Source: Aminiphilus circumscriptus DSM 16581
GTDB lineage: Bacteria; Synergistota; Synergistia; Synergistales; Aminiphilaceae
Assembly (NCBI RefSeq): GCF_000526375.1
Contig: NZ_JAFY01000002.1
Location: forward strand, 310,001 to 374,000
DNA: 64,000 nucleotides
Direction of reading: 5' to 3'
This document shows, piece after piece, positions 31,229 through 53,984 of this stretch. A model generated the notes under the pieces. That model was not told where the DNA came from and searched no databases. It saw only the letters and a list, made by a program, of their open reading frames with translations. Each line of letters opens with the position of its first letter. Position 1 is the stretch's first letter. A program made the translations under genes and the position numbers.

Positions 31229-31686
31229 TTCCGCACCTCCGCAGAAGACATTCCGCTCTCGGATTTTTCCTCGCACTCCGCGACAGAAATACGCGCCGTC
31301 GCCTGAAAAAGAGATGTGCCACCGGGGCAACCGTCGCCGTTGCCGCCTCGTGAGAGCGACGCAAGTATAGTGACTTCTTTTGAGGAGTGCAACGAAAATT
31401 TGCGGATCTGTGACAAAACAGGGGCAGCATCATCCCTAAGGAACCTCTGAAAAACGCCACACCGACCTCAAAAAAACGCGATGCGATCAAAATCGTGCGC
31501 GCGAGAGAGAGAAACCTTTTAATCAGGGCTTCCCTAAAACGGGACAGGAAAAATGTCATTTGTTGTCATTCTCCACGGATGATGAGGCGCGATGTTTTCT
31601 TGAGCCTGAAGAAAGCAAAAGAAAGCGAAAAAACGTCGATTCCGGACAAGAAGGTAGTGAAAGAGGGGATGACGGCGGCGGAAGGG
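31229..31686. other. Intergenic region with a MITE
   Basis: About 460 bases between the TPR-like gene and the acyltransferase stop. It holds the 94-bp repeat element at 31440-31533 and otherwise no convincing gene; short frames lack ribosome sites. Confidence 0.5.
31440..31533. mobile_element. MITE-like element, copy 2 (CTAA target duplication)
   Basis: A 94-bp diverged relative of the element at 21790-21889. The ends are GGAACCTCTGAAAAA and TTAATCAGGGCTTCC, an imperfect inverted pair of the same type. CTAA flanks both sides (31436-31439 and 31534-31537). The interior differs from copy 1 but resembles the element at 61452-61538. Confidence 0.75.
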
Positions 31687-31720
31687 AGCGGTCCCGGCAC
31701 GATCACGCGCCGGGACCGCT
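31687..31720. terminator. Hairpin spanning the acyltransferase stop codon
   Basis: A perfect 12-bp stem, AGCGGTCCCGGC (31687-31698) with GCCGGGACCGCT (31709-31720), has the acyltransferase TGA in its loop. The minus strand lacks a clear U-tract afterwards, so termination is plausible but not certain; mRNA 3'-end protection is an alternative. Confidence 0.45.
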
Positions 31721-33565
31721 TTCCGCCTCGAGAAAGCCGAGCAGATCCTCCAGCGCCTCGTGAAGCGTCTCCTGAAGCGACGGAAGAGAGGTGCGGTCGT
31801 GCCGCCACCCCGAGAGGAAAAGGTGAAAGCGGTCGGCATAGGAAAGATAGCGGAAACCGTAGCCGTCCTCCACGACGGGTCCGAATCCGGCGAGGCGGAG
31901 CCCATCCGCCGCGGTGGTGCTGGTGGAGAAGGTGTTGCGGCTCAGGGTACGCCACCCGAGGTCGTCGTAAAGGGCGGGGCGTTCCAGGGATTCGGCGGCG
32001 GCGATCCGAAGCAGACCCCAGAGATGGCGGTCCACGCCAAACCCGGCCTTGCAGAGCCCAACCCGCTCCACGTGACACGCGGCGGCCTTTCGCAGAAGGA
32101 GGGCACATGTTCCCGCCTGGCTCTTTGCGGCGATCCGGGCGTTTCGCACCGCTGCGGCGTTGACGAAGGCAACCGACGCGGACGTTACGGGGCGCATGGC
32201 CTCGGTACGGCCATGGAGAAACCGACGGGTCATCACTGCCTGATAGGTGGTGCGGCAGACGCCGAAAAGCCGCCGCTGGGCGAGCTGGAGCGCCAGCTGC
32301 ACGAAGGCGTCGGAACTCACTCCCGCCCGCTTGATCCGATCCTTGCCAAAGGCATCGAAGGACCAGGCCCGGACACACACGCTTCGGGAATGTTCCTCCA
32401 CGACACGGAGAGCACGATGGACTTCTCCGAGAAGCTCCTCGTCAAAGGCGAAGCGGAGTTCCCGCAATGCGGGACGGATGCCGCCGGAAGCCCCTTCCCG
32501 GCGGGGTGCCTCCGTCGCGAGATGTGCCGCGAGACGGACCATGACGGATCCGTCCGTTCCGGCATGCTCCATGACGATCCCCGCGCCGCCGTCTGGAAAG
32601 ACCACGAACTGCACGGACTTGTCGTACCAGCGGTTCGCCGTCTCCCCGGCGAGAAGAGCCGCGCCGAGGCCGGAAAAGTCTTCCGGCACCGCCTCGTCGC
32701 AGCAGATCGCGAAGAGAGCCGTCTCGACGCTTTCGAGGAGTTCCTCGTTGCCCGGAATCGCCGCGAGACGCCGCCGCAAGGCGGCCCATCGTTCCCGGGG
32801 AAGAGCGGTGAACACTCCGACGGGGAAGGTCGCCGGAGTGGAACGACACCGTTCGTCGATGTCCCGGAAGGTCGCCGCCAGTTCGTCCGAACCACAGTAA
32901 GAGCGCGACGAAGCGCATGGGAGATCCATCCGAAAAAGACGCCCCCGGCGAAGCACCACCACGTGTTCCGCCGTTTTCCCGTTCCCGTCGGCGGCGAAAC
33001 GGAGCACGTCCCTTGAAGCACAGGGAACACGGGTGGTCCCGAAGACCCGCCGGAACTGGGCCATGCAGAGCGGCTCTCCCCGCTCCATATCCGGAGGAAG
33101 CGATTCCTCCAGGATTTTTCTCCGAAAGGCGAGCGCACCGAGGACGAGGGAGGCCGCCCGGGAAGACCACTCCTTCTCCCGTTCCTCCAGGGCGTAGAAC
33201 ACCGAGGAGTGAATCACCAGGGAGTCCCGAAAGGAGAGATACATGTCCTCCCAGAAGGGTTCCAGCCAGTTGGGGACATCCGGTCGGGACGCCCTCTCCA
33301 CGAGGCGGCGCTGCAGCTCGCGGCCAGGACCCGTCGCCCCCGCGAACGCCTCCGTCGCCTCCGTGGTGATGGCGAAGGCCCGGTCGTCCAGAAGAGGGCG
33401 TATCCATTCGAGATAGCGGCGGCACGTGTCGCCCAGGTCCGGAACGGGAAGGCGGGGCAGTTTTTCCTGAAAGGCAAAGATCCCCTCCGGGACTTCCACG
33501 CATTCCTTCCGCGGCGACGCGAGCACGGGCTCGTGCATGCCATGCCCCTCTTCGTTTCGTTCCAT
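31703..33565 (-). CDS. Choline/carnitine O-acyltransferase family protein
   Basis: A 620-residue full-length member of the choline/carnitine acyltransferase family, which moves acyl groups between CoA and a quaternary-amine alcohol. Family blocks appear in order: LPRLPVPDLGDTCRRYLE near residue 36, FWEDMYLSFRDSLVIHSSVFY at 104, MAQFRRVFGTTRVP at 168, FTALPRERWAALRR at 252, NRWYDKSVQFVV at 311, catalytic His334 in GIVMEHAGTDGS, DAFVQLALQLAQRRLFG, TRRFLHGRTEAMRPVT and FGPVVEDGYGFRY. No signal peptide is seen, so it is cytosolic. It follows a ProXWV-like importer by 18 bases, which suggests the imported amine is its acceptor. The family is mainly eukaryotic and rare in bacteria. The acyl chain length cannot be read from sequence. 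Confidence 0.9.
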   Translation of the reverse strand: MERNEEGHGMHEPVLASPRKECVEVPEGIFAFQEKLPRLPVPDLGDTCRRYLEWIRPLLDDRAFAITTEATEAFAGATGPGRELQRRLVERASRPDVPNWLEPFWEDMYLSFRDSLVIHSSVFYALEEREKEWSSRAASLVLGALAFRRKILEESLPPDMERGEPLCMAQFRRVFGTTRVPCASRDVLRFAADGNGKTAEHVVVLRRGRLFRMDLPCASSRSYCGSDELAATFRDIDERCRSTPATFPVGVFTALPRERWAALRRRLAAIPGNEELLESVETALFAICCDEAVPEDFSGLGAALLAGETANRWYDKSVQFVVFPDGGAGIVMEHAGTDGSVMVRLAAHLATEAPRREGASGGIRPALRELRFAFDEELLGEVHRALRVVEEHSRSVCVRAWSFDAFGKDRIKRAGVSSDAFVQLALQLAQRRLFGVCRTTYQAVMTRRFLHGRTEAMRPVTSASVAFVNAAAVRNARIAAKSQAGTCALLLRKAAACHVERVGLCKAGFGVDRHLWGLLRIAAAESLERPALYDDLGWRTLSRNTFSTSTTAADGLRLAGFGPVVEDGYGFRYLSYADRFHLFLSGWRHDRTSLPSLQETLHEALEDLLGFLEAESGPGA

Positions 33566-33583
33566 TGTCGGCCCTCCTTTCGG

Positions 33584-34435
33584 CTAGCGCGTCGGAGGCT
33601 CCCAGCGCCTGGCGAGGCTCTGGGTAATGCGGTCGATGACGATGGCGAGGAGCACCACGCTGGACCCTGCCTCGAAACCACGCCCCACGTCAATGCGGTT
33701 GATGGCGAGGAGCACCTCCTGCCCGAGACCGCGGGCGCCGATCATGGAGGCCACCACGACCATGGCGAGGGCCATCATGGTGGTTTGGTTCACACCGGCG
33801 AGAATGGAAGGCATGGCCAGGGGAATGCGCACCTCCCGGAGAAGCTGCCACCGGGTGGCTCCGTAGGCGAGGGCGGCCTCTTCAACCGCCTTGGGAACCT
33901 GACGAAGCCCGAGTTCGGTGAGGCGGATCACCGGAGGAAGAGAGTAGATAAGCGTTGCGAGCACCGCCGGAACCTTGCCGAGGCCGAAGAGCATCATGGC
34001 GGGAATGAGGTAGACGAAACTAGGCATGGTCTGCATGGCATCCAGAAGAGGCCGAAGGACGAGCGAGGCCCCCCGGCGCTCCGCCATGAGCACCCCCACG
34101 GGGACCCCCAGGATCAGGGCAAGGAACACCGCCGTGATGACCACCGAGAGCGTCTCCATGGCCATGGACCAGAGACCGAACATACCGATGGGAAAAAGAA
34201 GAAGACCGAGGAAGGCCCCCGCGAGAGGACGCCGGGTGGCATAGACGCCCAAAAGCGCCACAGCAAGGAGTACCGACCACCAGGGAAGCCAGATGAGAAA
34301 ACGGTTCACCTTGAGCAGCAGGGAAAGGATGCCCGCCGACACGGCGTCGAAGAAGGCCGCGTGATCCACCACAAGCCAGTCGATGAAGGAGTTCACCGCA
34401 GGCGCAATGTGATATTCGAGAGTTTTCGGAAACAC
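33584..34435 (-). CDS. proW: Glycine betaine/choline/carnitine-type ABC transporter permease (ProW-like)
   Basis: A 283-residue permease of the OpuAB/ProW family with about seven membrane segments. The cytoplasmic coupling region is the EEAALAYGATRWQLLREVRIPLAMPSILAGV block, and LLDAMQTMPSFVYLIPAMMLFGLG is typical of quaternary-amine porters. It lies 9 bases after the ATPase gene and 18 before the acyltransferase. It moves the ligand delivered by the 35380-36372 binding protein. Confidence 0.92.
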   Translation of the reverse strand: MFPKTLEYHIAPAVNSFIDWLVVDHAAFFDAVSAGILSLLLKVNRFLIWLPWWSVLLAVALLGVYATRRPLAGAFLGLLLFPIGMFGLWSMAMETLSVVITAVFLALILGVPVGVLMAERRGASLVLRPLLDAMQTMPSFVYLIPAMMLFGLGKVPAVLATLIYSLPPVIRLTELGLRQVPKAVEEAALAYGATRWQLLREVRIPLAMPSILAGVNQTTMMALAMVVVASMIGARGLGQEVLLAINRIDVGRGFEAGSSVVLLAIVIDRITQSLARRWEPPTR

Positions 34436-34444
34436 GGGTCCCTC

Positions 34445-35380
34445 CTATCCGGCGCGGTGTTCCGCCATGCGGCGCTCCGCCCGGGCAACCTGCTCCCGCT
34501 CGTCCTGAACGAAGCGGGCCACGTAGTCGTCGGCGGGGTCGGCGATGATGTCGTCGGGGGAGCCGATCTGGACAATGCTCCCCTTGCGCATGACCGCCAT
34601 GCGGTCCCCCAGGCGCAGCGCCTCGGAGAGGTCGTGGGTGACGAAGAAGATGGTCTTCCGGAGCGTCCTCTGGAGGCGGATCAGCTCGTCCTGGAGTTCT
34701 CTGCGAATGAGGGGATCAAGACCGCTGAAAGGTTCGTCCATGAAAAGGATGGGAGAATCCATGACGAGAGCCCTGGCGATGCCCACGCGCTGGCGCATGC
34801 CCCCCGACAGGGAGGCGGGATAGGCTCTTCCCCATCCTTCGAGCCCGACTCGGGAGAGGATCTCCTTTGCTTTGTCCGTTCGGGCCGTTGCCTCCTCTCC
34901 TCGGAGCTTCAGGCCGAAGGAGGCGTTTTCCAGAACCGTCCGGTGCGGCAGGAGACCGTAGTGCTGAAAGACCATGGCCACCTCCGTCCTGCGGAAATGC
35001 ACCAACTCCTGGGGCGTCATGGCCGTCACATTCCGCCCGTTCACGGAGATGTTTCCCGCCGTGGGTTCCACCAGGCGCATGAGACAGCGGATGAGAGTGG
35101 ATTTTCCGCTGCCGGAGAGCCCCATGACAATAAAGGTCTCCCCCGGCTCCACGGAGAACGCCGCATCTCGAACGGCCACCACGACCCGTCGTTCCTTCTC
35201 CAAAGCCTCCAGCGCCTCGGGATTCTCCACAATCCCCGGAGGCAGCACGTCGCCCTTCTGCCTGGAATAGATCTTCCAGAGCCCCCGAACTTCGATGGCG
35301 GCGGAAGAGAGAGGCGGCGCGTGCGCCGCCTCTCTCTGTTCCGGACCGAGATCGGCGGAGAGTGCGTAATGGAAAGCCAC
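34445..35380 (-). CDS. proV: Quaternary-amine ABC transporter ATP-binding protein (ProV-like)
   Basis: A 311-residue ABC ATPase: Walker A GLSGSGKSTLIRCLMRLVEP, Q-loop VFQHYGLLPH, signature LSGGMRQRVGIARAL, Walker B PILFMDEPFSGLDP, H-loop FVTHDLSEAL. The IYSRQKGDVLPP lead and the FRRTEVAMVFQ region fit the OpuAA/ProV group; the usual C-terminal CBS pair is absent, so the osmotic-strength sensor of OpuA seems to be missing. GTG 35380 shares a base with the binding-protein stop (TAGTG). Confidence 0.92.
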   Translation of the reverse strand: MAFHYALSADLGPEQREAAHAPPLSSAAIEVRGLWKIYSRQKGDVLPPGIVENPEALEALEKERRVVVAVRDAAFSVEPGETFIVMGLSGSGKSTLIRCLMRLVEPTAGNISVNGRNVTAMTPQELVHFRRTEVAMVFQHYGLLPHRTVLENASFGLKLRGEEATARTDKAKEILSRVGLEGWGRAYPASLSGGMRQRVGIARALVMDSPILFMDEPFSGLDPLIRRELQDELIRLQRTLRKTIFFVTHDLSEALRLGDRMAVMRKGSIVQIGSPDDIIADPADDYVARFVQDEREQVARAERRMAEHRAG

Positions 35381-36372
35381 TAGGGAAGCGCCTCCAGAGC
35401 GGCCCGTACCTTCCCCGCAATCTCCGGGGCCAGCCACGCTGCCCAGACCGCCTCGTACTCCTTCAGGAACCACTCCGCCGCCCGCTCCACCGTGGCACCG
35501 GACTCGAACATGAAGGCCAGCACCTTGTTGTTCTGCTCCAGCGTGGTCTCGTAGACCTCCAGAAAACGCCGCACCTCCGGATGGGCCTCGGCGAATTTCG
35601 CGTTCATGAGAATGAGCACTCTCGCCTTGGGAAAGGCACAGCCGTAGTCCTTTCCCTCTCCCCAGCGGGATTCGTCGTAGGGCGGTTCCTCCAGAAGTGT
35701 CATGTCGTACTTGCCGAGAACCCACGTAGGCTCCCAGTAGTAGGCCAGAATGGGACGTCCCCGGTCATAGGCGGTCTTGATGGCCGTGGAAAGGGCCGTC
35801 TCGGAGCCGGGCGCGAAGGATTCGAAGGTTTCCTCCAGACCGTAGGTCCTGAGCTTCACGTTGTTGATGGTATGCACCATCCATCCCGTGGGCCCATTGT
35901 AGAAACGCCCCTTCTTAGGGTTCTCCGGATCCTTGAAGAGTTCCCAGTACTTGGGCAAGTCCGCCACGGACTTCAGGTCCGGCGCGACGGGAGCAATGCC
36001 CCGGGCCGCGTCGCCCTTGATCATGTACGTCGGTACGTACCACCCCTGGGGAGCATCCGGAAAAGTGGACCCCAGATCCACCACAGTCTTTCTGGTCTGA
36101 GCCTTTTCCCACCATTCCACCACGTTGTCCACCCATCCTTCCATGGAGAGATGGGCGTCTCCGCGCTCGATGGCCATCAGCCCCGGCATGGACTCGGCAA
36201 AGACGTATTCCGGCGCGTAGCCGAATCCATGTTCCAGGATGAAACCGGCGATGCGGTTGTGCACCTGCACACTGTCCCAGCTGAAATCGACGAAAATCAC
36301 CGATTCCGCCGCAGCGACGGGAGCGACGGCCAAAACCGCCGCAAAGAGAAACCACAGCACTGTCTTCTTCAC
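35380..36372 (-). CDS. proX: Quaternary-amine substrate-binding protein (ProX/OpuAC-like)
   Basis: A 330-residue secreted binding protein. GTG 36372 has AAAAGGAG upstream and starts a signal peptide (KKTVLWFLFAAVLAVAPVAAAES). The mature part has the OpuAC-type fold: VDFSWDSVQVHNRIAGFILE, MEGWVDNVVEWW, ILAYYWEPTWVLGKYDMTLLEEPPYDE with several Trp/Tyr that could form the aromatic box for a trimethylammonium group. It heads the operon proX-proV-proW-acyltransferase. Ligand choice between betaine, choline and carnitine cannot be settled here. Confidence 0.9.
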   Translation of the reverse strand: MKKTVLWFLFAAVLAVAPVAAAESVIFVDFSWDSVQVHNRIAGFILEHGFGYAPEYVFAESMPGLMAIERGDAHLSMEGWVDNVVEWWEKAQTRKTVVDLGSTFPDAPQGWYVPTYMIKGDAARGIAPVAPDLKSVADLPKYWELFKDPENPKKGRFYNGPTGWMVHTINNVKLRTYGLEETFESFAPGSETALSTAIKTAYDRGRPILAYYWEPTWVLGKYDMTLLEEPPYDESRWGEGKDYGCAFPKARVLILMNAKFAEAHPEVRRFLEVYETTLEQNNKVLAFMFESGATVERAAEWFLKEYEAVWAAWLAPEIAGKVRAALEALP

Positions 36373-37001
36373 GCACGTCACACTCCTTTTCCTGGTGCGA
36401 ATACCGTCCTCCGAGGAGACGCGACACGTCTCCGGAGGCGGAAACTGCCCGGATGGGGAACGGCTCGTGTTTTTTCCGAAAAATAGGGGTCTTTTTTCCT
36501 TTCGCGAAGGCGATCGGGCCACATATGTCCGCAAAAAAACCGACGATACCGGAACGAGGCGAACGGCCTGGAGACAGCGACGTTGTGCTGTTTTTTAAGA
36601 ACAGCTCCAGAGGAAATGAAACAAAAATCCAAAATGAGGCACAGAACGATTATGACGTGTACAAAGTCTCGCTTCTTCAGATATTAAGAATAGACGATGA
36701 AGAACTGTTCTGTCAAGATCAATGCATACAATTAAAGCGTCTCCACTTCTTCATTCACCCTTTCCAACTCCCTTCAACACCTCGCAACACCCGTGTTGCA
36801 AACACCTCCGCAACAGGGACAAACACGACGGAGGCCGCCGCCGCATCGACCCTTCCGGAGGCGAATCCGGTTCTCGGAACGCGAGATCACTCTCGGGGTC
36901 CATCTCGTCATTTTTCCGAAAATGCGTCGCGAACAGATCGCGTTCGGCCCGAAAAAAGCGTGGTATCATTGTCGCCGACATACGGTCGGGAGGGAGACGG
37001 C
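36373..37001. other. Divergent regulatory region, proX versus unknown gene
   Basis: About 630 bases without a supported gene. It contains the proX promoter, a long transcribed leader with a small hairpin (GCTGTT...AACAGC near 36585-36606), an AT-rich patch at 36640-36740, and a perfect palindrome GCAACAC-CC-GTGTTGC at 36784-36799 that could be an operator for either side. I could not match the leader to a known riboswitch class. Confidence 0.5.
36687..36716 (-). promoter_or_regulatory. Sigma70-type promoter for the transporter-acyltransferase operon
   Basis: On the minus strand TTGACA (36716 to 36711) and TATTCT (36692 to 36687) are 18 bases apart in an AT-rich island. This would give a 5' leader of about 310 bases before proX. 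Confidence 0.55.
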
Positions 37002-37370: not shown

Positions 37371-37807
37371 GGCGACTCCACACACCGCCGAGAAAGACCG
37401 CCTCCCCGGCGGATGGCGCAAGAGCCCCACGAACAGGACGTGCCGCAAAAAAACGAAAATACTTCCCCCCTTCGGAGCGCGACGACGGCATGCGCTCCAT
37501 CTTTGTCGTTTCCGTTTTTCCGGTTTCCGAACACCACGACGACGCGCCCCGGAATGCGTTGTTCCACACCCGCGGACACGTCCCACTTCCCCCCTTCGGA
37601 GCAAAAAAACGAAATCCGCCAATCATGACTCACTCTTTTCACTTTTGCTTCGTCTTTTCGCATCGGCAATCCGCTCAAAAAGACCGACCATGAGGTGGAT
37701 GCGCCTTCCCCCTCGATTGGATAGAAAAGAGAGGCACCAGTATCCGGAGGGAACTCCGGAACGACTCGCAATCTTCAGCGGTGGAGAGCGCGAAGGGTGA
37801 GGGGGAC
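37371..37807. other. Intergenic region upstream of the microcompartment operon
   Basis: About 435 bases without a supported gene. Two copies of ACTTCCCCCCTTCGGAGC (37453-37470 and 37588-37605) are each next to a GCAAAAAAACGAAA tract, forming a scrambled direct repeat. The microcompartment promoter must lie here, but I see no consensus -35/-10 pair. Confidence 0.45.
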
Positions 37808-38155
37808 ATGTCCGTGACGGAGACGAAGCAGCGCATCGTCCAGGAGTACGTGCCCGGAAAACAGATCACGCTGGCCCACATCATCCGGAATCCAAGACGG
37901 GATTTCTGCGAGCGCCTTGGCGTGGATCAGCCCGGTGCGGTGGGCATCATGACCATTACGCCGGGAGAGGGCGCCATCATCGCCGGCGATGCCGCCACAA
38001 AAGCCGCCAACATTCATGTGGAGTTCGTGGATCGTTTCACCGGATGTCTCATGTTCACCGGAGAAGTGACCGCGGTGGAGACCGCTCTCAAGGGAGCCGT
38101 TATGACGCTGGAATCGGTGCTTGGATTCGTCCCCGCGCCGATCACCAGAACATAA
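37808..38155 (+). CDS. pduU: Permuted BMC shell protein PduU
   Basis: A 115-residue circularly permuted BMC protein that forms hexameric shell tiles capped by a small beta-barrel. QEYVPGKQITLAHIIRNPRRD, GIMTITPGEGAIIAGDAATKAA and the terminal PITRT are almost identical in pattern to Salmonella PduU. It opens the operon and is followed 18 bases later by the GTPase gene, the usual U-V pairing. ATG 37808 was chosen for the match to family N-termini. Confidence 0.94.
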   Translation: MSVTETKQRIVQEYVPGKQITLAHIIRNPRRDFCERLGVDQPGAVGIMTITPGEGAIIAGDAATKAANIHVEFVDRFTGCLMFTGEVTAVETALKGAVMTLESVLGFVPAPITRT

Positions 38156-38173
38156 CGGCTTTTTTCGTGCGCC

Positions 38174-38653
38174 GTGTCCCAGGGAGAAAAACGCGGAGAA
38201 CCGCGGCGCATCATGGTCGTCGGCCCCAGCGGCGCGGGAAAGACGACGCTTTTGACCGCTCTCGGCCTGATGGAACAGAAGCACGGCGGCAAGACCGAGA
38301 TGGTCTCCTACACGTCCCGGTCCATTGATACGCCCGGGGAGATGCTCGAGAATCCGCGCTATTATTCCGTCCTTCTGATGAATGCCCCCAAGGCGGCGTT
38401 GGTGCTTTTCGTAGCGGACCCGACGGGAAACGTGCGGTTTCCTTCCAGGATGGCCCAGGCGTTCCGGGCTCCGGTCCTGGGAGTGGTGACGAAAGTGGAC
38501 GTGAGCACTCCCGAGGAACGGGAGAGAGCGAAGGAACGCCTGCGAAGCGCGGGAGCGAGGGAGGTGGTCGACTGCTCGCCAGTGACCGGAGAGGGAATGG
38601 ATCGCCTGAAGTCTTCCATTGAACGCATGTCTAGGGAGGTGTTCCGTGCATGA
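38174..38653 (+). CDS. pduV: PduV/EutP-type small GTPase
   Basis: A 159-residue P-loop GTPase: G1 [13 protein letters not shown], a G3-like DTPGEML region and G4 TKVDVS. PduV in Salmonella associates with the shell and may guide compartment movement. GTG 38174 is the start; the pduA ATG overlaps its TGA. The length is normal for the family. Confidence 0.88.
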
Positions 38654-38928
38654 ACGGAGAAGCGCTGGGATTGATTGAAACACGAGGACTTGTGGGAGCC
38701 ATCGAGGCCGCCGACGCCATGGTGAAGGCCGCCAATGTGCACCTCATCGGCTACGAGAAGATCGGATCGGGCTACGTGACCGTTATGGTTCGGGGCGATG
38801 TGGGCGCCGTCAAGGCCGCAGTGGATGCGGGCGCGGCGGCGGCCAAGCGCGTGGGTGAGATCGTTTCCATTCACGTCATCCCCAGGCCGCATGCGGACAC
38901 GGAAAAGATCCTGCCCAAAATCGGGTAG
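38650..38928 (+). CDS. pduA: Hexameric BMC shell protein PduA-type
   Basis: A 92-residue single-domain BMC protein ([54 protein letters not shown]). It forms the main facets and carries the central substrate pore between the K/R and GS motifs; here the pore-loop segment is KIGSGYV. The start overlaps the pduV stop. Confidence 0.95.
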
Positions 38929-38946
38929 CCCGAGGAGGTGTAGACA

Positions 38947-39738
38947 ATGGCAGAACAGGACGTCATGAAGAAGGTCATGGACGAAGTCATGAAGCGCCTC
39001 GCTCCCGAGATCCCCAAGGAGGCGCCTGCGAACGACGCCGTCTGCGTGCCCGCCGCGGTCACCGAGTTCATCGGGACCGGCATGGGGCACACCCTCGGGC
39101 TCGTCATCGCCAACGTGGAGCCCCGCCTCCACGAAAAGATGGGCATCGACAAGAAGTATCGCTCCATCGGGATCATCTCCGACCGCGTCGGTGCAGGCCC
39201 CCAGCTCATGGCCGCCGACGAGGCCGTGAAGGCCACCAACACGGAGATCGTCTCCGTGGAACTGCCCCGTGACACCGAGGGCGGCTGCGGCCACGGCTGC
39301 CTCATCGTCTTCGGCGCCGAGGATGTCTCCGACGCCCGTCGCGCCGTCGAAGTGACCCTGGGCAACCTGGACACCTATTTCGGCGACGTGTGGGCCAACG
39401 ACGTGGGATACCTGGAACTGCAGTACACCGCCCGGGCGAGCTACTGCCTCAACAAGGCCCTGGGTGCTCCTCTGGGCAAGGCCTTCGGGCTCATCCTCGG
39501 CGCTCCCGCCGGTATCGGCGTGGTCATCTCCGACACCGCCCTGAAGGCAGCCGAGATCGATCCCTTCGCCTACTGTTCCCCCAGCAAGGGCACGAGCCTC
39601 ACGAACGAAGCGTTCATCATGGTCACGGGTGATTCCGGTGCGGTGCGGCAGTCCATCATCTCCGCCCGCGAAGTGGGAGTCAAGCTCCTTCACTCCCTCG
39701 GAACCAAGCCCAAGTCCCTCACCGTTCCGTACATCTAG
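38947..39738 (+). CDS. pduB: Tandem-BMC trimeric shell protein PduB
   Basis: A 263-residue protein with two BMC domains, forming trimers in the shell. The N-terminal MAEQDVMKKVMDEVMKRL helix is like the PduB extension needed to link shell and core. EFIGTGMGHTLGLVIANVEP starts the first domain and LGAPLGKAFGLILGAPAGIG the second. GAGGAGG precedes ATG 38947. Confidence 0.94.
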   Translation: MAEQDVMKKVMDEVMKRLAPEIPKEAPANDAVCVPAAVTEFIGTGMGHTLGLVIANVEPRLHEKMGIDKKYRSIGIISDRVGAGPQLMAADEAVKATNTEIVSVELPRDTEGGCGHGCLIVFGAEDVSDARRAVEVTLGNLDTYFGDVWANDVGYLELQYTARASYCLNKALGAPLGKAFGLILGAPAGIGVVISDTALKAAEIDPFAYCSPSKGTSLTNEAFIMVTGDSGAVRQSIISAREVGVKLLHSLGTKPKSLTVPYI

Positions 39739-39771
39739 GCTGAGGACGAATCCAACGAGGGGGTGACGCGG

Positions 39772-41445
39772 GTGGCTCAGCAGAAAAGAAGTAAACGTTT
39801 CGAAGTGCTTGAGAATCGTCCCGTCCACAAGGACGGATTCATCGGCGAATGGATCGATGTGGGACTCATCGCAATGGGGAGCCCCAACGATCCCAAGCCG
39901 TCCATCAAGGTCCAGAACGGCAAGGTCGTCGAGATGGACGGAAAGACCCGGGCGAACTTCGACATGATCGAACAGTTCGTCGCGGATTACGCCATTGATG
40001 CGTCCGTGGCCGAGGAGGCCATGTCCAAGAGCTGCCTCGAACTGGCAAGAATGCTCGTGGACATCAACGTGCCGCGCGACGAGGTGCGCCGGCTCTTCGG
40101 CGCCCTGACCCCGGCGAAGCTCGCGGGCGTCATGGCGGAGATGAACATCGTGGAGATCATGATGGCCATGCAGAAGATGCGCTGCCGTCAGACTCCCGCC
40201 AACCAGGCTCACGTGACGAGTGCGAAGGACCATCCCGTGCTTCTCGCCGCGGACGCCGCGGAAGCCGCTCTTCGGGGCTTCGTCGAGATCGAGACCACCG
40301 TCGGCGTGGTTCGCTACGCGCCCTTCAACGCACTGGCACTCCTCATCGGAGGCCAGGTGGGACGCCCCGGAACCCTTTCTCAGGACGCCCTGGAAGAGGC
40401 TTTCGAGCTTCAGATCGGTATGCGGGGTCTCACCGCCTATGCGGAAACCGTGTCGGTCTACGGAACGGAGAGCGTCTTCGTGGACGGAGACGACACACCC
40501 TGGTCCAAGTCCTTCCTCGCCTCCGCCTACGCGAGCCGCGGCTTGAAGATGCGGTTCACCAGCGGTACGGGAAGCGAAGTGCAGATGGGCGCCGCCGAGG
40601 GGCGGAGCATGCTCTATCTCGAAGCGCGGTGCGTCATGATCACCAAGGGCGCCGGCGTCCAGGGACTCCAGAACGGCTCCATCTCCTGCATCGGCGTTCC
40701 CGGCGCAGTTCCCTCGGGCATCCGGGCCATCGCCGCGGAAAACCTCATCACCATGGCGCTCGACCTGGAAGTCGCCTCCGGCAACGACCAGACCTTCTCC
40801 CACTCCGATCTGCGCCGTGTGGCTCGTACCATTCCCCAGTTCTTCCCGGGCACGGACCTCATCTTCTCCGGCTACTCCGCCGTGCCCAACTACGACAACA
40901 TGTTCGCAGGCTCCAACTGGGACATCGAGGACGTGGACGATTACCTCGCCCTGCAGCGCGACTTCCGCGTGGACGGCGGCCTGAAGCCCGTCTCGGAGGA
41001 TGAGGTCATCGCCGCCCGCAACAAGGCCGCCCGGGCCATGCAGGCCGTCTTCGAGGAATTCGGCTTCCCGCCCATCACCGACGAGGAAGTCGAACTCGCC
41101 ACCTACGCCAACGGCAGCAAGGACGTGGGAACCCGCAACGTTCCTGAGGATCTGAAGGCCGCCGAACGCCTCATGAAGGAAGGGATCACCGGCATCGACG
41201 TCGCCAAGGCCCTCGCCAAGAGAGGTTTCCGGGACATCGCCGCCTCTCTCGTCATGATGATGAAACAGCGTGTCTCCGGCGACTACCTCCAGACTTCCGC
41301 ATGGATCGCCTCGGACGGCACCGTCTACAGCGCCGTAAACGATCCGAACACCTACCAGGGCCCCGGCACGGGATACCAAATGTCCGAGGAACGCTGGAAC
41401 GAGATCAAGGCCATTCCTTGGGCCGTCAATCCCGAGGACATCTAG
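39772..41445 (+). CDS. pduC: B12-dependent diol/glycerol dehydratase large subunit
   Basis: A 557-residue alpha subunit holding the active site, where an adenosylcobalamin radical dehydrates 1,2-propanediol or glycerol to an aldehyde. KRFEVLENRPVHKDGFIGEW, MRCRQTPANQAHVT, SGTGSEVQMG and the FSGYSAVPNYDNMF block match the family. GTG 39772 has GAGGGG at proper distance; a GTG at 39763 lies too close to it. Substrate preference between glycerol and propanediol cannot be decided by eye. It works with PduD and PduE inside the compartment. Confidence 0.95.
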   Translation: MAQQKRSKRFEVLENRPVHKDGFIGEWIDVGLIAMGSPNDPKPSIKVQNGKVVEMDGKTRANFDMIEQFVADYAIDASVAEEAMSKSCLELARMLVDINVPRDEVRRLFGALTPAKLAGVMAEMNIVEIMMAMQKMRCRQTPANQAHVTSAKDHPVLLAADAAEAALRGFVEIETTVGVVRYAPFNALALLIGGQVGRPGTLSQDALEEAFELQIGMRGLTAYAETVSVYGTESVFVDGDDTPWSKSFLASAYASRGLKMRFTSGTGSEVQMGAAEGRSMLYLEARCVMITKGAGVQGLQNGSISCIGVPGAVPSGIRAIAAENLITMALDLEVASGNDQTFSHSDLRRVARTIPQFFPGTDLIFSGYSAVPNYDNMFAGSNWDIEDVDDYLALQRDFRVDGGLKPVSEDEVIAARNKAARAMQAVFEEFGFPPITDEEVELATYANGSKDVGTRNVPEDLKAAERLMKEGITGIDVAKALAKRGFRDIAASLVMMMKQRVSGDYLQTSAWIASDGTVYSAVNDPNTYQGPGTGYQMSEERWNEIKAIPWAVNPEDI

Positions 41446-41466
41446 GGAGAAGGGGGGAACTCATCC

Positions 41467-42120
41467 ATGCAGCTCAGCCAGGAACTGATCCAGAAGGTCA
41501 TCGCTGAAGTGCTCGCCGAGGTCATGAACGGCGCCCCTGCTCCGTCCTCCGCTCCCGAGGCCGAAGTTTCCGGAATCGTGTTCGCCGAGAAGGGCAAGGC
41601 CGCACGGGGAACCGATCCGAGAGAAGTCGTCGTAGCCGTGACACCCGCCTTCGGAACGACGTTCACGAAGACCATCGTCGACGTACCGCACGCGGAAGTC
41701 CTCCGCCAGATCTTTGCGGGCATCGAGGAAGAGGGACTTCGGGTGCGGGTCATCCGCGTCTACCACACCGTCGACGTGGCCTTCATGGCGCACCAGGCGG
41801 CGAAGCTCTCCGGTTCGGGCATCGGCATCGGCGTCCTCTCCAGAGGAACGTCGATCATCCACCAGAAAGACCTGAACCCGCTTTCGAACCTGGAACTCTT
41901 CCCGCAGTCGCCGCTTCTCGATCCGCTCACCTTCCGAGCCATCGGCAAGAATGCGGCCAAGTACGCCAAGGGTGAACAGCCCACGCCGGTGCCGACGAAG
42001 AACGATCCCATGGCGCGTCCGCGCTATCAGGGGCTCGCGGCGCTTCTGCACAACAAGGAGGCCCGCTTCATCGACCGAAACAAGGCCCCCATGGAGCTCT
42101 CGGTCACGTTCGAAGGGTAG
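41467..42120 (+). CDS. pduD: Diol/glycerol dehydratase medium subunit
   Basis: A 217-residue beta subunit. The first 20 residues (SQELIQKVIAEVLAEVM) form an amphipathic helix of encapsulation-peptide type, followed by a Pro/Ala linker and the conserved PAFGTTFTKTIVDVPHAEVL and GIGIGVLSRGTSIIHQ segments. The subunit contributes to cobalamin binding. It lies 21 bases after pduC. Confidence 0.95.
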   Translation: MQLSQELIQKVIAEVLAEVMNGAPAPSSAPEAEVSGIVFAEKGKAARGTDPREVVVAVTPAFGTTFTKTIVDVPHAEVLRQIFAGIEEEGLRVRVIRVYHTVDVAFMAHQAAKLSGSGIGIGVLSRGTSIIHQKDLNPLSNLELFPQSPLLDPLTFRAIGKNAAKYAKGEQPTPVPTKNDPMARPRYQGLAALLHNKEARFIDRNKAPMELSVTFEG

Positions 42121-42131
42121 GAGGTGGCGAT

Positions 42132-42650
42132 ATGGCTCAGATGAACGAACAGCTCGTGGCGGAGGTCGTCCGCCAGGTACTGCAGAACATGAACGGCAAG
42201 GCCGCGCCGGCCCCGAAGGGCGGCAAACTCACCGCCGCCGACTATCCCCTTTCTTCCAAGCGGCCCGAAATCCTGAAGAGCCCCAAGGGAACGCCTTTCA
42301 ACGAACTTACCCTTGAGGCCGTGGAGAACGGCAAGGCCACCTTCGAGGATTTCCGCATCACTCCCGAAGCACTGGAAATGCAGGCTCAGATCGCCGAATC
42401 CGCGGGAAGACGCCAGATCGCCCAGAACCTGCGCCGCGCCGCGGAACTGACCAAGGTTCCCGACGAGCGGATTCTGGAGATCTATAACCTTCTCCGGCCG
42501 CACCGCTCCACGAAGGAAGAACTCGAGGGCATCGCGGAGGAACTGGAGACCAAGTACGGCGCCAAGGTTTGCGCCGCCTTCGTCCGGGAATCCGCGGAAG
42601 TCTACGCCCGCCGCAAGCTCCTCCGGGGCGATCTGCCCTCCTCCGACTGA
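42132..42650 (+). CDS. pduE: Diol/glycerol dehydratase small subunit
   Basis: A 172-residue gamma subunit. NEQLVAEVVRQVLQNMNG at the N-terminus is another targeting-type helix. DYPLSSKRPEILKSPKGTPF and the FVRESAEVYARRKLL terminus match the family. It lies 11 bases after pduD; GGAGGTGG is upstream of the ATG. Confidence 0.95.
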   Translation: MAQMNEQLVAEVVRQVLQNMNGKAAPAPKGGKLTAADYPLSSKRPEILKSPKGTPFNELTLEAVENGKATFEDFRITPEALEMQAQIAESAGRRQIAQNLRRAAELTKVPDERILEIYNLLRPHRSTKEELEGIAEELETKYGAKVCAAFVRESAEVYARRKLLRGDLPSSD

Positions 42651-42673
42651 CAACAGGGAAGGGGCTCGCTTCC

Positions 42674-44500
42674 GTGCCGCTCATTGCCGGTATCGACATC
42701 GGAAACGCCACAACGGAAGTCGCCCTTGCCAGGGTGGAAGGAAGGGATGTCTCCTTCCTTTCCTCCGCCCTGGCGCCCACTTCGGGCATCAAGGGAACGC
42801 TGCAGAACGTGGCCGGATTGCGGCGAGCCCTCGGTCTCGCGTTGGAGCGTGCGGGATTCGCACGGGACGACTTTCGCAAGGTCGACCGAATCCGTCTCAA
42901 CAAGGCCGCACCCGTCATCGGGGACGTGGCCATGGAGACCGTGACGGAGACGATCATCACCGAATCCACCATGATCGGCCACAACCCCTCCACGCCGGGC
43001 GGTGTCGGCGTGGGCGTGGGGGTCACCACCGCCTTTGAACGCCTCAAAGAGGTTCATTCCGGTGACGTGGTGGTCCCCGTCATTCCCGCTTCGGTGGATT
43101 ACGAACACGCCGCCGCAGGAGTAGCGGACGCCATGAACCGCGGCGTCAACGTGGCCGCCATCATTTGCCAGGCCGACGACGGCGTTCTCATCGCCAACCG
43201 GCTTCCCCGTCCCGTTCCCATCGTGGACGAGGTAAGTTCGGTGGACCGCGTGCCTCTGGGCATGCGCTGCTGCGTCGAGGTGGCTCCTCCGGGACGAGTG
43301 GTGGAACTGCTCGCCAACCCCTACGACATCGCCACGATTTTCGACCTCTCCCCGGAGGAGACGCGCCAGATCGTTCCCGTGGCCCGCGCCCTCGTGGGAA
43401 ACCGCTCCGCCGTGGTGATCAGAACCCCCCTCGGAGAAGTGAGGGAGCGCCGCATTCCCGCGGGGGAACTCTACATTATCGGTCCCTCGGGGAAACGCAT
43501 CGTCAACGTCGAGGAGGGCGCCGAGGCCATCATGAACATGGTGAAGGCCTGCCAGCCCGTGGAAAACATCTTCGGTCAGCCCGGAACAAACGTGGGAGGC
43601 ATGATGGAACGGGTCCGCAAGACCATGTCCAATCTCACGGACATTCCCCTGAGCGACATCTACATCCGGGATCTTCTCGCCGTGGACACCCTCGTTCCCC
43701 AGAAGGTCGTGGGGGGCGTGGCGGGAGAATTCTCCCTGGAATCCGGCGTCGCCCTGGCGGTGATGGTGAAGACCGAGGAACTGCCCATGCAGAAACTCGC
43801 CAAGGCCATTGAGGCCGATCTCGGCGTCACCGTGGAGATCGGCGGCGTCGAGGCCGATATGGCCATCCGGGGTGCCCTCACCACGCCGGGGACAAAATGT
43901 CCCGTGGCGATTCTCGATCTCGGCGCGGGAAGCAGCGACGCATCCTTCATGCGTCAGGACGGGACGGTGGAACTCATCCATCTCGCCGGAGCCGGGAACA
44001 TGGTGAACACCATCATCATGAGCGAACTGGGCATCGACGACTTCGACCTGGCGGAATCCATCAAGCGCTATCCCCTCTGCAAGGTGGAGAGCGTCTTTCA
44101 CATCCGCCAGGAGGACGGAACGGTGCGTTTCTTCGACAAACCGCTGGATCCCGAGGTGTTCGGCCGGGTGGCGCTCATCCACGAGAACGACATGCTCCAG
44201 CCCATTCGTCTGAACGTCACGCTCGAACAGGTCCGCAACATCCGCCGTAAGGCGAAACAGGAAGTCTTCGTCACCAACGCGGTGCGCGCCCTGGAACAGG
44301 TGGCGCCCGCCCACAACGTGCGGCTCATCGACTACGTGGTTCTCGTCGGCGGCTCCGCCGTGGACTTCGAGGTCCCCACCATGATCACCGAACGGCTCTC
44401 TCGGTGGGGCGTCGTGGCGGGAAAGGGCAACATCCGCGGCAAGGAAGGCCCGAGAAACGCCGTGGCCACGGGGCTCGTGCTCTCCGCGACGGGGGCATAG
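42674..44500 (+). CDS. pduG: Diol dehydratase reactivase large subunit
   Basis: A 608-residue actin-fold ATPase (DdrA) that expels damaged cobalamin from the dehydratase. IAGIDIGNATTEVALA is the phosphate-1 loop, and AILDLGAGSSDASFM and VVLVGGSAVDFEVP are the other nucleotide motifs. GTG 42674 gives the standard N-terminus. The small subunit gene starts 4 bases after it. Confidence 0.94.
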   Translation: MPLIAGIDIGNATTEVALARVEGRDVSFLSSALAPTSGIKGTLQNVAGLRRALGLALERAGFARDDFRKVDRIRLNKAAPVIGDVAMETVTETIITESTMIGHNPSTPGGVGVGVGVTTAFERLKEVHSGDVVVPVIPASVDYEHAAAGVADAMNRGVNVAAIICQADDGVLIANRLPRPVPIVDEVSSVDRVPLGMRCCVEVAPPGRVVELLANPYDIATIFDLSPEETRQIVPVARALVGNRSAVVIRTPLGEVRERRIPAGELYIIGPSGKRIVNVEEGAEAIMNMVKACQPVENIFGQPGTNVGGMMERVRKTMSNLTDIPLSDIYIRDLLAVDTLVPQKVVGGVAGEFSLESGVALAVMVKTEELPMQKLAKAIEADLGVTVEIGGVEADMAIRGALTTPGTKCPVAILDLGAGSSDASFMRQDGTVELIHLAGAGNMVNTIIMSELGIDDFDLAESIKRYPLCKVESVFHIRQEDGTVRFFDKPLDPEVFGRVALIHENDMLQPIRLNVTLEQVRNIRRKAKQEVFVTNAVRALEQVAPAHNVRLIDYVVLVGGSAVDFEVPTMITERLSRWGVVAGKGNIRGKEGPRNAVATGLVLSATGA

Positions 44501-44504
44501 AATC

Positions 44505-45122
44505 ATGGCATCCTGGTGCGGACACATCGGCGAAAGCCCTAGTGAACGCCCCGCGGTGGTGCTTCTCTTCTCCCCTTCGCTCGACCCCGACATTGCCATC
44601 ATGGTCGGAGCGGGCAGCGAAGAGGAGGGCGTTCCTCTCGTGTGGGATACCATGAAAGGAACAGCGGAGGTTATTTCCAGACAAGCCGCTCTCCGCTCCC
44701 GCCTCGAAGTCGGGGTGGGCATCACCTCCGACGCATGCGCGATCACGCTGGTGAAACACACACAAGGACCGTACATCCTCCGGCAGGGTCCGGGCTCCTT
44801 CGGCGCTTCGGAGAAAAAGGCCTTGAAAAAAACACTCCGCTGGCTGGGAGGCGCGGCGGCTTGCCTCGCGAAAGGGCAGCCTCTTCCGGACGAACGAAAG
44901 GAAGAGAGCCTTCCACATTCCGCGGAGACAGAGACCCGAAAAACGACAGCGACAATCGAACGGGAAAAACCGCCCCAGGGCAATCCTTTTCCACAGGACC
45001 TCCTCCGCCGGAATGCTGCCGGCGACGACGCCGGACAACGGGAAACATCCGCTCCCTCCGAGGACGAGATGGTCCGGCGCTTGGTCGCACTGGTGCTCGA
45101 GACCCTGAACAAGGCACCCTAG
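44505..45122 (+). CDS. pduH: Diol dehydratase reactivase small subunit with extended C-terminus
   Basis: A 205-residue protein, clearly longer than the roughly 116 residues of known PduH. Residues 1-125 are the DdrB domain (VGAGSEEEGVPLVWD, SRLEVGVGITSDACAITL, GPYILRQGPGSFGAS). Then comes a charged linker of about 60 residues and a C-terminal helix (DEMVRRLVALVLETLN) resembling the encapsulation helices of PduD, PduE and PduP. This suggests that the reactivase carries its own targeting signal. Confidence 0.9.
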   Translation: MASWCGHIGESPSERPAVVLLFSPSLDPDIAIMVGAGSEEEGVPLVWDTMKGTAEVISRQAALRSRLEVGVGITSDACAITLVKHTQGPYILRQGPGSFGASEKKALKKTLRWLGGAAACLAKGQPLPDERKEESLPHSAETETRKTTATIEREKPPQGNPFPQDLLRRNAAGDDAGQRETSAPSEDEMVRRLVALVLETLNKAP

Positions 45123-45165
45123 AGGTCTTCGTCCGCAGGAGGCAGGAGAGGAGGAGTGAGCAGGC

Positions 45166-45876
45166 ATGAGTGAACTGCACATACGAACAGCCCTCGGCTT
45201 CATTGAGGTCGTCGGTCTCGCTGCCGCGGTGGCGGCTGCCGACGCGGCTCTCAAGGCGGCGAACGTAAGTCTTGTGGGGCGCGAGATCTCCAAAGGATAC
45301 GGCTATGTGACGGTGAAGATCGCCGGCGACGTGGGCGCCGTGAAAGCCGCTCTCGCCGCGGCGAAGGCCGTGTCGGAAAAGGTGAGCAAGGTCTGGTCCG
45401 TGGACGTGATCCCTCGTCCCGCCTCCGCCATCGGTCCCGTGCTCACCTTCAACAGGGAAACCCAGGGCGCCTCCGAGTGGGTTGCGGCACACGGCCCCCG
45501 GGAGACGTTCTCCACCGCGCCGGAGAAAGAAGAAAAAAAAAGCCCTTTCGTTCCCCCGTCTCCGTCCGAAGAACGGCCCTCCGTCGCAGAGACCGAAGAG
45601 GCCGTTCCGGCTCCACAGGGAGACGGGAAAGGACTTCCGGAACGGACGTCGATCGTGGAGCCGGAACAGCAACCTTCCGCCCCTTCGGAGACGCCGGAGG
45701 AAGGCGCGGGTGGGGACGGACAGGACGACGCGCGCGAGGAACCGGACTCTTCCGCTCTCCCACATGGGGAAGACACGGTTGAGATTTCCGAGGCACCGGT
45801 AAAATCCCCCCAGCCCGAGAGCACGCGGGAGACGGCGCGGCGGAGCAAGAAACGAGAGAGCAAACGCAACCGATAG
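45166..45876 (+). CDS. pduK: BMC shell protein with long charged tail (PduK-like)
   Basis: A 236-residue protein. Residues 1-95 are a BMC domain ([36 protein letters not shown]). The remaining 140 residues are a Pro/Glu/Ser-rich disordered-looking tail ending in a very basic SKKRESKRNR. Salmonella PduK also has a tail, but that one carries cysteines; none are visible here. The tail might bind nucleic acid or other shell parts. Position between pduH and pduJ matches pduK. Confidence 0.85.
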   Translation: MSELHIRTALGFIEVVGLAAAVAAADAALKAANVSLVGREISKGYGYVTVKIAGDVGAVKAALAAAKAVSEKVSKVWSVDVIPRPASAIGPVLTFNRETQGASEWVAAHGPRETFSTAPEKEEKKSPFVPPSPSEERPSVAETEEAVPAPQGDGKGLPERTSIVEPEQQPSAPSETPEEGAGGDGQDDAREEPDSSALPHGEDTVEISEAPVKSPQPESTRETARRSKKRESKRNR

Positions 45877-46005
45877 AAATTGCCCTCTTCAGGGCACTCC
45901 TTTCTCGTGAACAATGCGCAGCAAGAAAGACAGGGACATCCATCGGCCTCTTCGAAGTGCGTCGGAAGAGGCGACAACGCGGTAAACACCTAAGGAGGCG
46001 CGAAA

Positions 46006-46320
46006 ATGACCCAGGAAGCGCTCGGAATGATCGAAACACGCGGACTGGTGGGCTCCGTGGAGGCAGCGGACGCCATGGTCAAGGCGGCCAACGTGACCCT
46101 CGTGGGACAGCGGCTCACCGGTGGCGGACTGGTCACCGTCATGGTCCGCGGTGATGTGGGCGCCGTGAAGGCCGCCGTGGACGCCGGGACCGCCGCGGCA
46201 TCCCGCGTCGGCGAAGTGGTCTCCACCCACGTGATCGCCCGTCCCCACGGGGAGATCGAGGGAATTCTCCCCTCCCCCGAGGGAACGCAGACCGAACAGA
46301 TCGAAATCTGCAAGGATTAG
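46006..46320 (+). CDS. pduJ: Hexameric BMC shell protein PduJ-type
   Basis: A 104-residue BMC protein close to the PduA-type one at 38650 ([39 protein letters not shown]). It ends in a short acidic tail. AAGGAGG lies upstream of the ATG. Two major hexamer genes in one operon is the usual Pdu pattern. Confidence 0.93.
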
Positions 46321-46329
46321 GACGCCATC

Positions 46330-46998
46330 ATGGAGCTGGAACGATCCCTCGTCGAACGCGTGACCCGGAAGGTCATCGAAGCCCTTGACGGGAATCCGGC
46401 AACGTCCCTTGAGACGGCGTCCTCCTGTCCGGGGTATGTCGTGGCGGGCGTGAGCAATCGTCATGTCCACCTCTCGCCGGAGCACGTGGAGATTCTTTTC
46501 GGAAAGGGATACCGGCTCACCGTTCTGCGGGACCTCCGCCAACCAGGACAGTACGCCTGCAAGGAGACGCTCCACGTGGTCACCTGGGGAGGCGTTCTCG
46601 AAAACGTACGCATTCTCGGCCCCGAGAGGAAGAGCAGTCAATTCGAACTCTCCCTCTCGGATGCCAGAAAACTCCGCATCGACCCGCCTCTCGCCAAAAG
46701 CGGGAGCAAGGCCGCGTGTCCTTCGGTTCTGCTCGTCGGCCCCAGGGGAAGCGTGGTACTCGACTCGGGCATCGGTCTCGCCTGGAGACATGTCCATCTT
46801 TCCCTGCCGGAAGCACAGGTCTTGGGTCTGAAGGACGGCGATGAAACAGACGTGGAAGTAGAAGGCGAACGGGGCATCGTGTTCCGAAAGGTTTGGGTTC
46901 GGGTGCACGAGAGCTTCCTGAGCGAGTTTCACGTGGACGTGGACGAGGCCAATGCCTGCGGCCTCAAGACAGGGGATCTGGTGCGGCTATGTCTGTGA
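46330..46998 (+). CDS. pduL: Phosphate propanoyltransferase PduL
   Basis: A 222-residue phosphotransacylase converting acyl-CoA to acyl-phosphate and recycling CoA inside the compartment. ERSLVERVTRKVIEALDG is an N-terminal targeting helix. SNRHVHLSPEHVEILFG and WRHVHLSLPEAQVLGL carry the zinc-binding histidines of its two beta-barrels. It overlaps the next gene by 10 bases. No acyl-phosphate kinase gene (pduW) is in this window. Confidence 0.94.
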   Translation: MELERSLVERVTRKVIEALDGNPATSLETASSCPGYVVAGVSNRHVHLSPEHVEILFGKGYRLTVLRDLRQPGQYACKETLHVVTWGGVLENVRILGPERKSSQFELSLSDARKLRIDPPLAKSGSKAACPSVLLVGPRGSVVLDSGIGLAWRHVHLSLPEAQVLGLKDGDETDVEVEGERGIVFRKVWVRVHESFLSEFHVDVDEANACGLKTGDLVRLCL

Positions 46999-48095
46999 AC
47001 CGATCCGTCGGCGGCTTCATCTCTTCTTCCGTCATCGCCCGCCCCGGCGAGGATCTCGAGCGAATGCTCCCCTCCTTCGGAGACGGCAGGCGCGTCGCCC
47101 CCTCTCCGGAACCGGCAGGAAGGGGTCTGATTTTTTGCGGCCGCTCCGGCGGAAACGAAAATCCTTCCGCCGCAACAGGCAGCGCACAGGTCGCCGAGGC
47201 GGAGGCGGTGTTTGGAACCTGCCCGGAGACTGTACCCCTCCCCTACGACGAACAGTTTGTGAAACACCTGCTGGCACCCCTCGACGAGGCACTGTTCCGG
47301 GAAGAACCCCTGACATCCTGGAACAAACTGTATCTCGGCTTCGATCTGGGCACGACAAACCTGGTCCTTGTGGCCCTCAACGAGGAGGGACAGCCCGTCT
47401 CGGCGGTCCTCGAATCCTCCCGCTCGTCCATCCGCGACGGCGTGGTGGTGGATTACATGGCGGCCATGACGGGCATGCGCTCCTGCCTCGAACGTCTTCA
47501 GCACCGACTTGGCAGGGCCGTCACCGGCATCGGTGCCGCGGCCTATCCTCCGGGAATCTCGGAGCGGACCGCGAAGGTCTGCGCCAACATCGTGGAATCC
47601 CTCGGCTTCGACTGCAAGGGGCTTTACGAGGAGCCCACCGCCGCGGCTGCCGCGTTGGGGACTTCCGAGGGGGCCATCGTCGATATCGGCGGCGGCACCA
47701 CGGGCATCTCGGTCCTTCGGGAGGGCAAAGTGGTCTACACCGCAGACGAGCCCACCGGGGGCACGCACATGACGCTGGTCCTGTCCGGCGCGCTGGGGCT
47801 CGACTTCGACGCCGCGGAGACGCTCAAGCGGAACAAGACCGAACAGATCCGCCTCGTGCCCATGCTCAAGCCCGTCCTCGAAAAAATGGCCACCATCGTG
47901 CGCCATCATCTCGATGTGAGCGGCTTCTACGGAAAGGTACCCGTTCTTCTCGTGGGGGGAGGCGCGGCCTTTCCCGGCGCGGAGGCCATCATGGAGCGCA
48001 TCATCGAGCAGCCGGTGACGCTGGCACCACATCCGCTGCTGGTGACCCCCGCGGGGATCGCCAGAAACCTCTGGAGGGAACAGCATGGCCGTTGA
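46989..48095 (+). CDS. eutJ: EutJ-like actin-fold chaperone with BMC-derived N-terminal tail
   Basis: A 368-residue protein. Residues about 110-365 are a EutJ/FtsA-like actin-fold ATPase (LYLGFDLGTTNLVLVAL, AAAYPPGISERTA, YEEPTAAAAALGTSEGAIVDI, VLLVGGGAAFPGAEAIM). The first 33 residues (VGGFISSSVIARPGEDLERM) closely mimic the C-terminal strand and tail of the PduA/PduJ proteins, here [13 protein letters not shown] in PduJ. A linker of about 75 residues joins them. The EutJ role is unproven; a shell or enzyme chaperone is assumed. Confidence 0.85.
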   Translation: MSVNRSVGGFISSSVIARPGEDLERMLPSFGDGRRVAPSPEPAGRGLIFCGRSGGNENPSAATGSAQVAEAEAVFGTCPETVPLPYDEQFVKHLLAPLDEALFREEPLTSWNKLYLGFDLGTTNLVLVALNEEGQPVSAVLESSRSSIRDGVVVDYMAAMTGMRSCLERLQHRLGRAVTGIGAAAYPPGISERTAKVCANIVESLGFDCKGLYEEPTAAAAALGTSEGAIVDIGGGTTGISVLREGKVVYTADEPTGGTHMTLVLSGALGLDFDAAETLKRNKTEQIRLVPMLKPVLEKMATIVRHHLDVSGFYGKVPVLLVGGGAAFPGAEAIMERIIEQPVTLAPHPLLVTPAGIARNLWREQHGR

Positions 48096-48822: not shown

Positions 48823-48826
48823 TCCC

Positions 48827-49443: not shown

Positions 49444-49444
49444 C

Positions 49445-50401: not shown

Positions 50402-50429
50402 CAACGGGGAAGACCCGGAGGTGATTTCC

Positions 50430-51836: not shown

Positions 51837-51851
51837 GAGGCGACATTCATC

Positions 51852-53180: not shown

Positions 53181-53278
53181 CCTCGGCACGAGCGGCATTC
53201 CCTTCGCTGCAACGCAGCTCGGAAAGGGCAAAGCGCAAGACACCCTGACAAGCTTCTCGGGAAAGGACGGAAGAGACC

Positions 53279-53827: not shown

Positions 53828-53984
53828 GAAACAGGCGAGAAACGGAGGCAGACTGCCTCTTTGGTACAACGATCAGGAGCATCGAGTGCGGAAGTGACTG
53901 TGGCTTTCCGTTCCGGGAAGGAAATCCGAACGGACGGGAACCTTGGGGAAATCACCGGGTACGAAACAGAAGGAGTGTGAAAAC

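Follow-up and report, generated by a model that had tools for sequence, protein, structure and literature searches.

The window, a 64,000-nucleotide stretch of the genome of Aminiphilus circumscriptus DSM 16581 (Synergistota), carries on its minus strand an operon in which the three genes of a ProXVW-type ABC importer are followed by the gene of a complete carnitine/choline acyltransferase. The genes, with their Pfam bit scores, and the flanking features are:

36687..36716, minus strand, promoter-like site TTGACA-18-TATTCT from a consensus scan, about 315 bases upstream of proX (weak evidence)
36372-35380, minus strand, proX, GTG start, 330 aa, signal peptide-like N terminus, OpuAC (180.8 bits)
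35380-34445, minus strand, proV, GTG start, 311 aa, ABC_tran (118.7 bits), ATPase subunit without CBS domains
34435-33584, minus strand, proW, GTG start, 283 aa, BPD_transp_1 (100.8 bits), permease subunit
33565-31703, minus strand, type I acyltransferase, ATG start, 620 aa, Carn_acyltransf, PF00755 (506.7 bits)
31680..31726, minus strand, strong hairpin across the acyltransferase stop codon (RNA fold of 80 bases, -50.4 kcal/mol)

The proV start overlaps the proX stop by 1 base, 9 bases separate proV from proW and 18 bases proW from the acyltransferase gene, which bears out the gene order and the spacings of at most 18 bases read in the original prediction. Purine-rich ribosome sites precede the starts of all four genes, the acyltransferase having its own. 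The consensus scan found two promoter-like sites where 0.8 were expected, while the hairpin, which has no U run and is absent from the list of terminator-like structures, possibly forms the 3′ end of the transcript. The long ORFs that cover this DNA on the plus strand are regarded as shadow frames of a GC-rich sequence. Chance is excluded as the origin of the arrangement, since the acyltransferase matches its family with an E-value of 1e-151 and a second genome of the genus (G017, contig L002) has the same operon with an acyltransferase that is 94% identical. No plasmid carriage of the operon was found and a search of an anti-phage library gave no match. On the opposite strand, starting 1.4 kb from proX, lies a propanediol-utilisation microcompartment cluster (37781-55100) that encodes BMC shell proteins, a PduV/EutP GTPase, PduC (960 bits) and PduD-like and reactivase-like proteins.

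The carnitine/choline acyltransferase family is mostly animal and fungal, and the exchange of acyl groups between carnitine and CoA is thought of as a mitochondrial and peroxisomal step. The window enzyme is a full-length member of this family, as had been predicted, its match covering positions 1-574 of the 574-position PF00755 profile with a score far above the cut-off of 22.3 bits; no NCBIfam model matches these acyltransferases. The nearest solved relatives are carnitine octanoyltransferase (COT, 261 bits), CPT2 (255 bits) and CrAT (247 bits), followed by choline acetyltransferase (234 bits). An AlphaFold model of the enzyme has a pLDDT of 85.9 and the two-domain fold of the family, and the 28 best PDB matches that Foldseek gave for it all belong to the family (TM 0.84-0.92), choline acetyltransferase among them, with a wide gap to the next fold class. 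The best of these is the S554A/M564G mutant of CrAT bound to hexanoylcarnitine, CrAT reaching a TM of 0.92 and the COT, CPT2 and CrAT folds together spanning 0.85-0.92. The enzyme differs from these eukaryotic relatives, to which it is 30-33% identical, in being bacterial, in being encoded in an ABC-importer operon and in belonging to a separate lineage of the tree.

Mapping of CrAT positions onto the window enzyme, for which the eukaryotic sequences from PDB alignments were used, showed that the catalytic and substrate-binding residues are kept, as the original prediction required of its catalytic His334. This residue aligns with CrAT His343 within an intact EHxxxDG motif, the CoA-binding lysines Lys419 and Lys423 correspond to Lys408 and Lys412, and the STS motif (CrAT Ser552-Thr-Ser554) is present as Ser547-Thr548-Ser549. 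CrAT Tyr452, Thr465 and Arg518, which from the CrAT structures we take to be the ligands of the carnitine carboxylate, are found as Tyr441, Thr454 and Arg513, whereas choline acetyltransferase, which shares the fold and the chemistry, has a valine at CrAT position 465 and an asparagine at 518. CrAT Thr467 is replaced by Ala456. The acyl tunnel of CrAT is closed by Met564, limiting that enzyme to short chains; the window enzyme lacks this short-chain gate, CrAT positions 564-565 being occupied by Ala559-Gly560, nearly as open as the Gly-Gly of CPT2. Because the three carboxylate ligands are kept and the gate is Ala-Gly, the enzyme is predicted to act on carnitine, not choline, and to transfer acyl groups that are of medium length, longer or branched. 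The substrate first proposed, carnitine or choline, would accordingly narrow to carnitine for the window copy.

The proXVW genes supply the complete parts of an importer: a binding protein with an aromatic cage, a permease and an ATPase. The nearest solved relative of the window ProX is DmpX (7YLE, E 8e-35). RnDmpX has a cage of four tryptophans and holds the carboxylate of its ligand through Thr64 and Ala153 (PMC10030565). The window ProX conserves DmpX Trp35, Trp84, Trp152, Trp202 and Tyr200, and has Ser61 in place of Thr64. It is taken to be a periplasmic quaternary-amine binding protein, with carnitine as its putative ligand; the ProX pockets are small, and the fold alone is a weak guide to ligand identity since DmpX is a DMSP-specific protein (PMC10030565). 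The importer shares its subunit set and its Trp-caged OpuAC binding protein with ProXVW, ChoXWV and DmpXWV, but its matches to the ProX, ProW and ChoXWV-type models lie below the NCBIfam cut-offs (the best for ProW being ChoW/ProW) and it is linked to an acyltransferase. ProV matches TIGR01186 with 326.3 bits over profile positions 6-240 of 363 only, and Pfam detects no CBS domain in it, so that it lacks the C-terminal tandem CBS domains of the osmosensing ProV/OpuA proteins. While this absence had been seen correctly, the metabolic role that was deduced from it does not follow: proXVW operons of the phylum that lack an acyltransferase encode ProV proteins just as short (294-320 aa) and, judged by ProV length, the lack of CBS domains is general in the transporters of the phylum. 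It was therefore discarded as a mark of metabolic function.

Our survey for PF00755, which covered Synergistota, controls and four other small phyla rather than all bacteria, found the family in 30 of 188 Synergistota genomes and 14 of 63 genera; the 14 control genomes lacked it, and so did the 102 genomes that represented the four small phyla. With proX (E < 1e-80) present in 39 Synergistota genomes, 26 of the 188 have both genes, 4 the enzyme only, 13 proX only and 145 neither, an association with a Fisher p of 3e-18 when kinship is ignored. A proW orthologue, 60-72% identical, is present in most acyltransferase genomes. The phylogeny proposed as a check places the window enzyme inside the family and apart from the eukaryotic members, for a sampling of Synergistota and four eukaryotic sequences from which bacterial members outside Synergistota are missing. 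In this tree 28 Synergistota enzymes lie on one side and the four eukaryotic ones on the other (eukaryotes 92/89), one long-branched Synergistota fragment falling outside that separation. The Synergistota enzymes are deeply split into a clade that we call type II (100/99) and the rest, including the window enzyme, called type I.

The surroundings of the type I enzymes are of several kinds. A full proXVW precedes the enzyme in five genomes from two families (G000, G017, G024, G043 and G039, the last cut to a fragment where its contig ends); an apparent ProW-acyltransferase fusion in G024 (an 816-aa ORF) proved to be an artefact of ORF calling, the enzyme beginning at MAEKYPETSG and an intact ProW lying in another frame. 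The two full-operon lineages do not form one clade in the best enzyme tree and a single clade is not rejected (p-AU 0.086), so that the operon may be ancestral or may have been assembled twice; the pairing of type I with the importer is recurrent. Six type I copies have no adjoining transporter. In two genomes (G121 and G122) the enzyme stands behind a butyrate kinase gene (449.5 bits) that is extra to the usual two copies:

L032, 6783-7850, extra butyrate kinase directly upstream of the type I acyltransferase
L033, 9869-10936, extra butyrate kinase directly upstream of the type I acyltransferase

The gate position in other type I enzymes is occupied by tyrosine, valine or cysteine, so that acyl chain length would be expected to vary within the type.

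Type II enzymes are associated with the binding protein in a different manner. In 12 genomes from five families the gene lies behind a lone proX paralogue, with a gap of -14 to 24 bases, and the same 12 genomes also carry one canonical proXVW elsewhere. The 12 lone ProX proteins form a single clade (100/99) among 61 ProX proteins, and their distances mirror those of their partner enzymes (Mantel r 0.978, 0 of 5000 permutations). Both genes are left as eroded remnants in G013, and the second enzyme copy of G024 is preceded by a proX with an internal deletion. The single ProX clade, the mirrored trees and the joint remnants show that this pairing is old and inherited. Together, the five full operons and the 12 lone proX pairs answer the question, raised with the original prediction, of linkage in relatives: transporter or binding protein is conserved beside the enzyme. 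In three loci (L045, L046 and L058) a second proX, of canonical type, lies 211-234 bases downstream of the type II pair.

A column scan of 32 canonical ProX proteins against the 12 lone type II partners gave exactly one separating column, that of DmpX Thr64 and window Ser61, where all 32 canonical proteins have serine or threonine and 11 of the 12 lone ones glutamate. The corresponding scan of the enzymes (10 type I against 18 type II) gave six separating columns, among them CrAT 518, with arginine in 10/10 type I and glycine or alanine in 17/18 type II enzymes. The ProX exception, a valine in G031, pairs with an enzyme having alanine at position 518, and the only type II enzyme with arginine there, that of G109, has no adjoining ProX. 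Choline acetyltransferase is, moreover, the best match of a type II enzyme (196 bits; CrAT reaches 164 and COT 77), which is not so for the window enzyme. These replacements suggest that the type II ligand lacks a carboxylate, as choline does. The changes at two known carboxylate-reading sites form a suggestive coincidence of two events and fall short of statistical proof, since each probably happened only once. Tentatively, then, the two types may be branches of one co-evolving module, the carnitine branch of the window and a branch of type II bacterial choline acyltransferases that would import choline-like alcohols and make or use acylcholines. If so, importer and enzyme carry two matched sets of specificity residues, and the type II proteins are candidate bacterial enzymes for making or consuming choline esters.

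For the window, we consider it reasonably probable that the operon imports a carnitine-like amine and moves acyl groups between this amine and CoA. The Trp cage of ProX would close on the trimethylammonium group while Ser61 reads the carboxylate of the zwitterionic quaternary amine, most likely carnitine or one of its short acyl esters, and ProVW would import this ligand. In the cytosol, His334 would then act as general base while an acyl group passes, in either direction, between the carnitine hydroxyl and CoA, with the open Ala559-Gly560 gate admitting medium or branched chains. The net direction, the least certain part of the proposal, is probably acyl salvage (acylcarnitine + CoA to acyl-CoA + carnitine), which is favoured because the importer and, in a sister lineage, the extra butyrate kinase adjoin the enzyme; the acyl-CoA could be converted to acyl phosphate and on to ATP by the phosphotransbutyrylase/butyrate kinase route. 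Were this true, anaerobic bacteria would import carnitine or acylcarnitines and swap acyl groups with CoA, and a family that occurs in 14 Synergistota genera would gain a function.

A partial parallel exists in Pseudomonas aeruginosa, where a lone carnitine-binding protein, CaiX, is encoded with ligand-using enzymes and acts together with a transporter core whose genes lie elsewhere, the operon also hydrolysing short acylcarnitines (PMC5806209). Like the type II pairs, this caiX-cdhCAB-hocS arrangement with its separate, shared CbcWV core joins a lone binding protein to enzymes of carnitine and acylcarnitine metabolism (PMC5806209). P. aeruginosa, however, uses a hydrolase and a dehydrogenase, whereas the CoA-dependent transferase of Synergistota would keep the ester energy as acyl-CoA, from which butyrate kinases could make ATP. 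No characterised bacterial carnitine acyltransferase, and nothing useful on bacterial members of the family, was found in the literature searched, and the paired binding protein and enzyme point to an undescribed bacterial handling of acylcarnitines or acylcholines.

The same parts would also serve an acyl-CoA buffer, a possible but doubtful alternative in which imported carnitine serves as an acceptor, much as a cofactor would, and CoA is freed because the enzyme puts the excess of branched-chain acyl groups from amino acid fermentation into storage or export. Carnitine acyltransferases are reversible, butyrate kinases able to use such acyl groups occur in all 32 Synergistota genomes searched, and three genomes (G020, G021 and G023) keep the enzyme without this transporter; but little import would suffice for a cofactor that acts catalytically, whereas importer and enzyme are tied together repeatedly, and no acylcarnitine exporter was recognised near the loci. 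Osmoprotection, with proXVW importing betaine and carnitine as compatible solutes and the acyltransferase as a neighbour of unrelated function, is unlikely. While ProX has the pocket of a general betaine binder and four close relatives (G025, G027, G028 and G042) have the same proXVW with no enzyme behind it, a separate ProX clade that pairs with the enzyme, in mirrored trees and joint decay, argues against mere adjacency, as do the 18-base gap and the enzyme's own ribosome site. That the window enzyme itself uses choline or another non-carboxylated quaternary alcohol seems, if anything, less probable still: choline acetyltransferase belongs to the family and the type II relatives look choline-like, but the window copy retains Arg513 and Thr454 and scores higher with all three carnitine enzymes than with choline acetyltransferase. 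Recent capture of a eukaryotic gene without a settled function, an idea prompted by the mostly eukaryotic family and its absence from the controls and small phyla, is very improbable given the tree, in which 28 Synergistota enzymes are separate from the four eukaryotic ones and divide deeply into two types, and given the presence of the family in 14 genera.

Two further leads to the ligand were followed and dropped. A conserved third gene past proXVW that might name the ligand was sought, and only family-limited neighbours were seen. In one Synergistota family (L066, L071, L075, L076 and kin) a canonical proXVW is followed by genes for a secreted protein with two rhodanese-like domains and for a 545-aa protein with a uridine-kinase-like C-terminal part; in another, a convergent gene for a 383-aa alcohol-dehydrogenase-like protein lies near proXVW. 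MttB-type demethylation of the imported amine was rejected as a common theme, MttB occurring among 32 genomes only in the genus of the window. One locus (L103 3510-12550, contig C2 at about 717767-726500) encodes two MttB-superfamily methyltransferases (315 and 288 bits) together with proteins named by eye as two saccharopine-dehydrogenase-like proteins, an NhaC-like antiporter, a GntR-like regulator and a corrinoid-protein-like protein, and possibly serves to demethylate a betaine-like amino acid.
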